From: Nitrosospira sp. Nsp11
GTDB lineage: Bacteria > Pseudomonadota > Gammaproteobacteria > Burkholderiales > Nitrosomonadaceae
Assembly (NCBI RefSeq): GCF_900142705.1
Contig: NZ_FRBV01000001.1
Span: forward strand, 1 to 64,000
Direction: 5' to 3'
Length of the DNA: 64,000 nt
Under the pieces are notes generated by a model. The model saw only the letters and a list, made by a program, of their open reading frames with translations, had not been told where the DNA came from and made no database searches. Positions 32,166 to 33,488 of the stretch are shown piece after piece. A program made the position numbers and the translations under genes. The first letter of the stretch is position 1. Each line of letters starts with the position of its first letter.

Positions 32166-33344
32166 TTATGCGTTTAATCCTCTTGCCAGATCAGCCTGGA
32201 TATCCTTTACCGCTTCGAGCCCCACCGCGATGCGCAATAAACCTTCGGTGATCCCGGCGGCATCCCGGCTTTCCTGGCTGATACGGGCATGAGTAGTGGT
32301 GGCAGGATGGGTGAGCGTACTCTTGGCATCACCCAGGTTGGCGGTGATCGAAATCAATCGAACGGAATCCACTACCCGCCATGCCGCTTCTCTCCCATTC
32401 TTCAACTCGAATGAAACGATTCCACCGCCGGTTTTCTGTTGGCGCCTGGCAAGCTCGTGCTGGGGATGCGAGGACAAACCGGGGTAGTGAACCCGCGCCA
32501 CGCTGGGCTGCGCTTCCAGCCAGCGAGCGATTTGCATGGCATTTGCAGAATGCGCATCCATGCGCAGCTTCAGAGTTTCCATTCCCTTTAAAATAACCCA
32601 GGCGTTAAAAGGGCTCAAACTGGGACCTGCGGTGCGCAAAAAACCAAAAATGCCGCGTTCCATTACCAAGTCACGCTTCCCCAGCACTGCGCCACCTAAA
32701 ACCCTACCCTGGCCTTCGAGATACTTGGTGGCAGAGTGAATTACAAGATCGGCGCCCAAATCCAGCGGTCGCTGCAGCGCTGGCGAACAAAAGCAATTAT
32801 CGACTGCAAGCCATGCACCGGCTTTTTTTGCCACATGCGAGAGTGCGGCGATGTCCGATATTTCAGTCAACGGGTTTGATGGAGTTTCGATAAACAGCAG
32901 CTTGGTGTTGGGCTTTACCGCCGCCTCCCATGCCGCGACATCGGTGGCGGAAACAAACGTTGTATCGATATTGAAGCGCCTGAGGATATTATTGAACAGG
33001 CTTACGGTTGCGCCGAAAAGACTGCGGGACGCGATGACATGATCGCCGGCGGAGAGTAGCCCCATCACGCAAGCAAGTATGGCCGACATCCCCGAAGAAG
33101 TGGCCACACAGGCTTCTGCGCCTTCGAGGGCGGCAAGCCGCTCTTCGAAAGCCGTAACCGTTGGGTTGGTGAATCGCGAATAAATATTTCCGGATTCCGC
33201 ACCGGAAAAGCGCGCCGCAGCCTGGGCCGCGCTATCAAATACAAAACTCGAGGTCAGGTACAAGGCTTCCGAGTGTTCGTTGAATTGACTACGGTGAATA
33301 CCGGTGTGTAACGCCAGGGTTTCCAGCTCAAAATCATCAGACAT
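32166..33344 (-). CDS. metZ: O-succinylhomoserine sulfhydrylase
   Basis: PLP enzyme of the Cys/Met-metabolism family that makes homocysteine from an activated homoserine and sulfide. The PLP lysine lies in 'HSATKYLEGQGRVLGGAV'; 'ESGNIYSRFTNPTV' and 'ATSSGMSAILACVMGLL' are the usual cofactor-phosphate blocks. Length is 392. The MetZ rather than MetB assignment follows the 'GQGRVLGG' signature and the position downstream of purF, common in this lineage. GGGAG precedes the ATG, and a SAM-II-like riboswitch and terminator lie immediately upstream. Confidence 0.92.
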   Translation of the reverse strand: MSDDFELETLALHTGIHRSQFNEHSEALYLTSSFVFDSAAQAAARFSGAESGNIYSRFTNPTVTAFEERLAALEGAEACVATSSGMSAILACVMGLLSAGDHVIASRSLFGATVSLFNNILRRFNIDTTFVSATDVAAWEAAVKPNTKLLFIETPSNPLTEISDIAALSHVAKKAGAWLAVDNCFCSPALQRPLDLGADLVIHSATKYLEGQGRVLGGAVLGKRDLVMERGIFGFLRTAGPSLSPFNAWVILKGMETLKLRMDAHSANAMQIARWLEAQPSVARVHYPGLSSHPQHELARRQQKTGGGIVSFELKNGREAAWRVVDSVRLISITANLGDAKSTLTHPATTTHARISQESRDAAGITEGLLRIAVGLEAVKDIQADLARGLNA

Positions 33345-33355
33345 GCTTAACTCCC

Positions 33356-33391
33356 AAAAAAAACCCGTTCAGCATTCGCTAAAACGGGTTT
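33356..33391 (-). terminator. Intrinsic terminator in the metZ leader
   Basis: On the minus strand AAACCCGTT and AACGGGTTT form a 9-bp stem with a 13-base loop, followed by an uninterrupted run of eight T. It ends one base before the metZ Shine-Dalgarno, so it acts in the leader and not after metZ. Its 5' arm overlaps the 3' arm of a competing hairpin made with the end of the riboswitch. Confidence 0.85.
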
Positions 33392-33447
33392 CCCGCTTTA
33401 GCCGAATTTATAATGCGCCCGCAAGCTGAATATCAAATCGGCGCTAC
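33392..33447 (-). promoter_or_regulatory. SAM-II (SAM-alpha) riboswitch upstream of metZ
   Basis: Read on the minus strand the segment matches the SAM-II aptamer as I recall it: GCGCC paired with GGCGC (stem P1), the loop start 'GATTTGATATTCAGC', then 'ATTATAAATTCGGCTAAAG'. These correspond to the conserved GAUUU, the UAUAAA-like stretch and the GCUAAA segment that form the pseudoknot. It sits in front of a methionine-synthesis gene, the standard context. The 3' segment GCTAAAGCGGG (33402-33392) can instead pair with CCCGTTTTAGC (33388-33378) across a 3-base loop. That pairing excludes the terminator, so SAM binding should favour termination. Confidence 0.8.
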
Positions 33448-33488
33448 AGTCAAAATTACGCCCGATAACTGTTTTTGTCAAATCCCCA

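Follow-up and report, generated by a model that had tools for sequence, protein, structure and literature searches.

The leader of metZ in Nitrosospira sp. Nsp11 raises the question of whether a SAM-II riboswitch, an RNA element responding to S-adenosylmethionine (SAM), can control its gene by ending transcription. We analysed 64,000 nucleotides (nt) of this genome, positions 1 to 64,000 of contig NZ_FRBV01000001.1 (assembly GCF_900142705.1), referred to hereafter as the window; coordinates follow the forward strand, and both the leader and metZ lie on the minus strand. The leader comprises the 144 nt between the end of purF (33489) and metZ. A preliminary description, made from the letters alone, had proposed that a SAM-II element placed before metZ acts as an OFF switch through a mutually exclusive antiterminator and terminator, a proposal that sequence, folding and conservation back. 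We estimate at about 90% the probability that the element is a SAM-II riboswitch switching metZ off by transcription termination. The mechanism is already known, and this type of site was almost certainly described in 2014, though under a different name. The metZ switch is ordinary for its class and at the same time a compact and clean case in which a kinetic SAM-II terminator switch could be measured beyond the alpha-proteobacteria. What the analysis uncovered around the switch, concerning the detection of SAM-II, two published RNA elements and a relative before metK, outweighs the switch itself.

All the pieces named in the preliminary description were recovered in their place on the minus strand (Table 1). 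Read 5' to 3', the first half of the leader consists of TTGACA, 17 nt, TAATTT and the series GCGCC...GCTTGC...GGCGC...GCTAAAGC, which forms the P1/P2 core of SAM-II; the P1 stem and the P2 pseudoknot, with the motifs GCTTGC and GCTAAAG, can be read directly in the window. The second half continues with GGG AAA CCCGTTTTAGC, GAAT GCTGAACGGG TTTTTTTT, GGGAG and the start codon. With metZ downstream, the element precedes a gene of the methionine/SAM pathway, as is expected of SAM-II. An intrinsic terminator follows the aptamer, and the tail of the aptamer, GCTAAAGCGGG (33402-33392), pairs across an AAA triloop with CCCGTTTTAGC (33388-33378) in 11 base pairs including one G-U, exactly the pairing across three bases (33402-33378) that had been announced. 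The two hairpins exclude each other because both use 33388-33378, the terminator going on to the T8 tract at 33363-33356; the shared arm of the preliminary description is thereby confirmed, and the antiterminator draws on aptamer bases that the ligand would sequester.

The covariance search suggested at that stage gave a divided answer on the identity of the aptamer. The gathering cut-off of RF00521 (SAM_alpha) is 36 bits, which is a listing rule and no biochemical feature, and at gathering thresholds no Rfam family, RF00521 included, matches anywhere in the window, a result that speaks against the identification. At a relaxed threshold the window scan yielded RF00521 at 33454-33381 (E 5.6e-4), and in the whole genome the metZ leader was the best of 11 matches at E<=10, with an E-value of 8.3e-4 followed by 1.7 for the next one: the leader thus ranks first in its genome and remains under the cut-off (26.5 vs 36 bits). 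All 14 control genomes have matches at E<=10 and none of them at E<=0.001; at E<=0.1, matches were obtained in 44 of 61 related genomes, two being over the cut-off, and also in 3 of the 14 controls. Leaders read directly gave a more homogeneous picture, the core being located before metZ with aptamer, antiterminator and terminator kept in 21 of the 23 genomes of the genus, in agreement with the predicted conservation of the antiterminator pairing. Both GCTAAAGC and CAGCTTGC are present in the 21 leaders and GATTTGA in 20, the exception (L049) being an extract that begins within the core. The two genomes without an intact element are G002, which is 80% complete and has no metZ match, and G013, whose aptamer is interrupted. 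In the Nitrosospira and Nitrosovibrio loci, the closest named relatives, MetZ is 83-94% identical to that of the window, which bears out the bacterial family assumed in the preliminary description.

A larger sample of 88 distinct leaders (from 117 of 173 loci) was selected by a pattern fixing [AG]ATTTG, GCTTGC and GCTAAAG. Because of this selection, the invariance of ATTTG, GCTTGC and GCTAAAG and of most P2 pairs in the alignments A1 and A2 is no independent evidence, which weakens the case for SAM-II. In A2 (50 distinct rows), P2 is paired in all cells, its motifs having been part of the pattern, and P1 is likewise paired in all cells, with a single pair changed on both sides, so that covariation within the aptamer is weak. 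Overall, these sequence comparisons support the assignment of the metZ leader element to SAM-II. Other weak RF00521 matches of the same genome (L002-L008) had no metZ in the fetched DNA. Two candidates were dropped: a weak RF00521 match in G030 (E 0.09), located away from metZ, and a Leu_leader match (15.7 bits, E 1.4) overlapping the terminator of the window.

A local model, R1, was built from 54 of the 88 distinct aptamers, whose sources were genomes of this order together with named metZ relatives of unchecked order; as the window is included, its 77 bits with R1 are so by construction. A draw of 299 genomes from the phylum gave R1 matches in 56, of which 31 are labelled as the same phylum only. 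Among 11 R1 loci fetched outside the class, RF00521 also scores 56-67 bits in seven, on the strand and at the place where R1 gives 35-41 bits; the remaining four reach 68-74 bits with R1 and have no RF00521 match at cut-off. Across 300 genomes of the order, RF00521 is over its cut-off in 51 and at E<=0.001 in 137, and R1 is at E<=0.001 in 228, its E-values being rough and obtained without control genomes. Since R1 recovers RF00521 members and matches 228 genomes vs 51, we take the RF00521 cut-off to be too strict here. Independently of the motif selection, R1 at E<=1 returned nothing in the 36 of 80 metZ loci lacking the pattern, save in the interrupted L098.

The terminator hairpin of the window, folded with its tail, reaches -15.6 kcal/mol (z -4.25), and a generic terminator scan of the window did not list it. 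In the other leaders, terminators were counted with a hairpin-plus-T finder at a threshold of -10 kcal/mol or better. By this measure 87 of the 88 strict-core leaders have one, vs 8.1% of 1000 random 150-nt segments of the window (both strands), and the proportion is 58 of 59 for the leaders not fetched via RF02424, an Rfam family whose model contains a hairpin. The lone leader without a terminator is L128, where an insertion with inverted ends seems to interrupt the hairpin (~1096-1400), some 840 nt ahead of metZ. Loci fetched with R1, without any motif filter, carry a terminator in 50 of 58 cases (30/30 for the best of the order, 20/28 for the phylum draw and, outside the class, 9/11); the terminator is present in 42 of 42 loci with the strict core vs 8 of 16 without it, and is therefore tied to the strict core and not to all its relatives. 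The stem shows compensatory changes in A2, with 20 cells changed on both sides vs 4.3 in shuffles, a value that none of 500 shuffles reached.

The antiterminator alone was computed at -15.3 kcal/mol vs a shuffle mean of -5.0 (z -4.5). As a control, the aptamer tail was paired to the loop and the 5' arm of the terminator, and the resulting duplex was set against 500 shuffles that permute the stem pairs and the loop letters, so that the terminator is kept. The window duplex, at -18.8 vs a shuffle mean of -4.5, was equalled by none of them. When leaders were clustered at 75% identity, the pairing had p<0.05 in 14 of 38 clusters, p<0.01 in 10 and was stronger than the null mean in 31; for clusters without loci fetched through RF02424 these figures become 10, 9 and 17 of 21. 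In A2, the antiterminator is paired in 89.5% of cells, falling to 32-60% when its strands are slid against each other.

Several results weigh against the antiterminator and need to be set beside these. The pairing is not significant alone in 24 of the 38 clusters, and in seven (L013, L045, L128, L133, L148, L153, L167) it is weaker than the null mean, some of the weak clusters being due to terminator boundaries badly set by the finder. The value of 89.5% is flattering, as A2 contains 51 of 62 leaders and the 11 left out have their pairing in another register or an unclear one. Moreover, the compensatory changes in relatives that the preliminary description had named as a check did not appear, none of the 11 antiterminator pairs in A2 changing on both sides; the power of this test is low because the 5' strand is the GCTAAAGC of the aptamer, also fixed by the selection of the leaders. 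By eye, some leaders show a pairing that is shifted in register and still complementary, such as GCGCAT/ATGCGC in L042 (p 0.002) and CTAAAGCG/CGCTTTAG in L009 (p 0.10), and to judge from their sequences these leaders are the nearest to compensation that this design permits. The support for the antiterminator thus comes from the shuffles and the register-shifted leaders, not from compensatory change.

The computed energies of the two hairpins, each taken alone, are almost the same. The folding of growing transcripts, performed as an equilibrium folding of prefixes and not as a kinetic simulation, gave the antiterminator a probability of 0.99 once its 3' strand is made and of 0.95 up to 12 nt further on; the probabilities of antiterminator and terminator are 0.49 and 0.41 at completion of the terminator hairpin, then 0.03 and 0.88 with the U-tract. 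When both P2 strands were barred from other pairs, mimicking SAM, the computed folding formed the terminator. In this model the profile is that of a kinetic switch, the order of synthesis favouring read-through without SAM and termination with SAM. For the cell, we infer SAM binding, use of the promoter and termination in the following manner. Transcription would begin just before P1, near 33446 at a guess. At low SAM, P1 would fold, then the 25-nt antiterminator hairpin (GCUAAAGCGGG AAA CCCGUUUUAGC), which would keep the terminator 5' arm until the polymerase clears the U-tract, allowing metZ to be made. At high SAM, the P2 pseudoknot would be stabilised and take GCUAAAGC ahead of antiterminator formation; the freed CCCGUUUUAGC would pair with GCUGAACGGG and transcription would end at the T8 tract.

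Table 1. Features of the metZ leader and its flanking genes in the window.
Feature	Position	Strand	Evidence
metZ, O-succinylhomoserine sulfhydrylase, regulated gene	32166..33344	-	NF006003 716 bits (cut-off 522); TIGR01325 592 bits (cut-off 510)
GGGAG, likely Shine-Dalgarno of metZ	33351..33355	-	Outside aptamer and terminator hairpin, sequence read
T8 tract	33356..33363	-	Sequence read
Intrinsic terminator hairpin AAACCCGTTTTAGC..GCTGAACGGGTTT	33361..33391	-	-15.6 kcal/mol with tail; compensatory changes, 50 distinct rows
Antiterminator 3' strand CCCGTTTTAGC, common to terminator 5' arm	33378..33388	-	Folding, shuffles
RF00521 SAM_alpha match	33381..33454	-	26.5 bits, under gathering score 36
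Antiterminator 5' strand GCTAAAGCGGG	33392..33402	-	Folding, shuffles
P2 pseudoknot 3' strand GCTAAAGC; doubles as outer part of antiterminator 5' strand	33395..33402	-	21/21 genus leaders
A-rich linker (L3), P1 to P2 3' strand	33403..33414	-	Sequence read, alignment
SAM-II P1 3' strand GGCGC	33415..33419	-	Sequence read, alignment A2
P2 pseudoknot 5' strand GCTTGC	33421..33426	-	Present as CAGCTTGC in 21/21 genus leaders
SAM-II P1 5' strand GCGCC	33440..33444	-	Paired in all A2 cells
Likely promoter, -10 hexamer TAATTT, 17 nt from -35	33453..33458	-	Sequence read
Likely promoter, -35 hexamer TTGACA	33476..33481	-	Sequence read
purF	ends 33489	- (same strand as metZ)	~100 nt before terminator hairpin

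The alternative that survives best, though it is improbable, is a SAM-II element mainly controlling translation, its terminator being constitutive or incidental, as has been proposed for S. meliloti metA. According to passages of PMC10907184, the best studied SAM-II acts on the ribosome binding site, and in S. meliloti metA, as PMC9373788 reports, the terminator after SAM-II was not predicted to respond to SAM. In the window, however, GGGAG lies beyond both the aptamer and the terminator, so that P2 cannot mask the Shine-Dalgarno sequence directly, and the complementarity of the terminator 5' arm to the aptamer 3' end is far above chance (0/500 shuffles). The metZ gene of the same S. meliloti offers a counterpart to a switch by termination: in the passages of Scheuer et al. 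2022 (PMC9373788), metZ was followed together with its terminated small RNA (sRNA) RZ, of about 100 nt, whose abundance is higher under high-SAM conditions. The window has the same gene and aptamer, and the OFF logic predicted for it likewise works through termination; it differs in coming from another bacterial class and in scoring under the RF00521 cut-off, as does much of its order. The same passages also contain a reservation, as high SAM in S. meliloti lowers promoter activity and stabilises the mRNA as well; termination therefore need not be the sole effect of SAM.

It is very unlikely that the hairpin is a mere terminator of purF overlapping the aptamer tail by coincidence. The end of purF, on the same strand and about 100 nt upstream, would suit such a role, but a promoter-like pair and the aptamer stand in between, and across the 88 leaders the hairpin starts 8-72 nt past the start of GCTAAAG, including before metX, metH, metK and a metN-like gene. 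Promoter-like hexamers are themselves a regular feature of these leaders, the best -35/-10 pair within the 75 nt upstream of the core having at most 3 of 12 mismatches in 74 of 88, vs 73 of 2000 random 75-nt windows. Hardly credible, finally, is a functional RNA on the plus strand, namely the sRNA of RF02424 (Bp2_287), which matches 33358-33476 of that strand (26.7 bits, E 4.5e-4) without attaining the family cut-off of 70: a SAM-II core stands on the opposite strand within the match in all 30 fetched RF02424 loci, the gene runs in the direction of SAM-II in the 12 of 30 with a tblastn MetZ match (L153 and L167 being 33% matches, other enzymes of the superfamily), and the T8 of the window hairpin is on the minus strand.

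Termination by SAM-II is not new. Many SAM-II elements are followed by putative terminators, as Corbino et al. 2005 noted (passages of PMC1273637), and a report of 2007 extended the combination of SAM-II and terminators to beta-proteobacteria. In SAM-II/SAM-V tandems, as passages of a 2022 review indicate (PMC9481103), SAM-II always stands ahead of a terminator and works by transcription termination; the window differs in having a single aptamer. Closer to our locus, passages of Leyn et al. 2014 (PMC4239095) present metXZ, a 'novel' element of beta-proteobacteria that stands before metX or metZ and to which they attribute a terminator-antiterminator mechanism. Its metZ sites are those of Nitrosospira multiformis, Thiobacillus denitrificans and three Methylophilales, the remaining sites preceding metX. 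It was depicted there as a pseudoknot, then a terminator, with a speculated antiterminator (regions 3 and 4) that differs from the one proposed here, and SAM_alpha was seen only in Rhizobiales and Rhodobacterales. Both the SAM-II core and the sequence of the terminator can be read in the N. multiformis metZ leaders L077, L078, L081 and L101. From its place and its description in the text, metXZ is almost certainly the very element of the window; metXZ then looks like SAM-II, a new equivalence that appears to place an 'orphan' methionine RNA element from the literature in an established riboswitch class whose ligand is known.

The case of RF02424 appears similar. Passages of PMC3521395 present Bp2_287 as the Burkholderia sRNA candidate Bp2_Cand287_SIPHT, found upstream of methionine genes in most genomes, with metZ, metX and purF among its neighbours; its authors suggested a cis-acting element and SAM-II is not named in those passages. 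The locus type is that of the window and the strand modelled is the opposite one. At E<=0.01, RF02424 matches 91 of the 300 genomes of the order, three over its cut-off, and 1 of 14 controls. In view of the 30 loci fetched (L144-L173), this Rfam sRNA family appears to be the SAM-II leader read on the wrong strand, that is, an antisense of SAM-II. A limited literature search met no statement that RF02424 or metXZ is SAM-II, nor of SAM-II in Nitrosospira, an absence that is unproven, and the passages of PMC4035088 contain nothing on this element.

In the three loci above the RF02424 cut-off (L144-L146), the linker between P1 and P2 contains an additional hairpin. The spacing from GCTTGC to GCTAAAG is 18 nt in 74 of the 88 leaders and 22-42 nt in these three. 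More generally, linkers of 22-57 nt, the extra part being a hairpin, were observed in L144 (1542-1590), L145 (1590-1636), L146 (1537-1603), L156, L160, L162 and L173. At E<=0.5, RF00521 found none of the long-linker cores scanned (L144-L146, L156, L160, L162). The linker hairpin probably explains the miss in L144-L146; RF00521 also misses L150 despite a nearly normal linker.

A further element came to light in six R1 loci that have no terminator of -10 kcal/mol (L218, L219, L221, L223, L229, L231). These loci share the core GAGTTA..CAACTTGC..GCTAAAGCG, with a match near 1501-1569, and precede a protein starting like MetK. An Rfam scan of the six gave no significant aptamer match, RF00521 reaching 20.9 bits (E 0.67) in L229, and detected S-adenosylhomocysteine (SAH) riboswitches further downstream in scanned loci of this variant. 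Of 300 genomes of the order, 42 have the GAGTTA-type pattern, representing 25 of 135 genera, and none has its backwards version. In 23 of the 30 variant loci fetched (L232-L261), the MetK signature SESVSEGHPDK occurs within 420 nt; the other seven lie 94-260 nt behind a strict SAM-II core, in tandem; a terminator is present in just six. P1 and P2 of the variant pair in 98.5% of cells (24 distinct rows), and 26 cells changed on both sides vs 8.5 in shuffles (0/500). Four base-pair types occur at the outer position of P1, and the last pair of P2 alternates between G-C and A-U; this covariation of P1 and of the end of P2 counts because the pairs fall outside the motifs fixed by the pattern. To judge from these alignments, the metK variant is a structured relative of SAM-II.

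Such a covarying element before metK appears to be unlisted: in a limited literature search, including passages of PMC2864571 and PMC4239095, the variant was not described, an absence that is unproven, and Leyn et al. 2014 found no known regulator for metK in beta-proteobacteria (PMC4239095). We lean, with reserve, towards a larger and poorly listed SAM-II system composed of a terminator-linked arm, alias metXZ and, in antisense, RF02424, and of a divergent metK arm forming a new SAM-II subclass. The metK subclass perhaps has another expression platform or another ligand.

SAM-II with a terminator is itself found before several genes. It was observed before metK in L157 (TIGR01034) and, from the first residues, in L163 and L166, with a SAH riboswitch after metK in L157 and L163; before metH in L045 and L173 (best family, the protein being cut at the locus end); before a MetN-like ATPase in L148 and L164 (below cut-off); before a cystathionine gamma-synthase family protein in L153 and before threonine ammonia-lyase in L169. 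The leaders of MetN-like genes (L148, L164, L165) have a shorter linker, with 12-13 nt between GCTTGC and GCTAAAG vs 18. Outside the class, L204, L206 and L208 (~1501-1732) each have a tandem pair of SAM-II-like cores in which the first core has a terminator, an arrangement that by analogy may perhaps be the known SAM-II/SAM-V one.

Within the family of the window, the element is unevenly distributed. None of the 21 Nitrosomonas loci (within L087-L119) showed a SAM-II core in the metZ region retrieved, which extended as far as 2 kb upstream, and R1 matches none of seven genomes of the sister genus g3, probably Nitrosomonas; sister genera of Nitrosomonas carry SAM-II before metZ. Two Nitrosospira leaders have been enlarged. 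In N. multiformis Nl12 (L049 / L078), some 150 extra nt with inverted repeats, identified by eye, separate the metZ terminator from the start codon. In Nitrosospira briensis Nsp8 (L098 1700-1928; its contig is also the one found in G013), P1 and the P2 3' strand are separated by an insert of 229 bp that has inverted ends (17/18 equal) and a TTA duplication. The insert leaves antiterminator and terminator intact and represents a natural test of the survival of the pseudoknot after the aptamer has been split.
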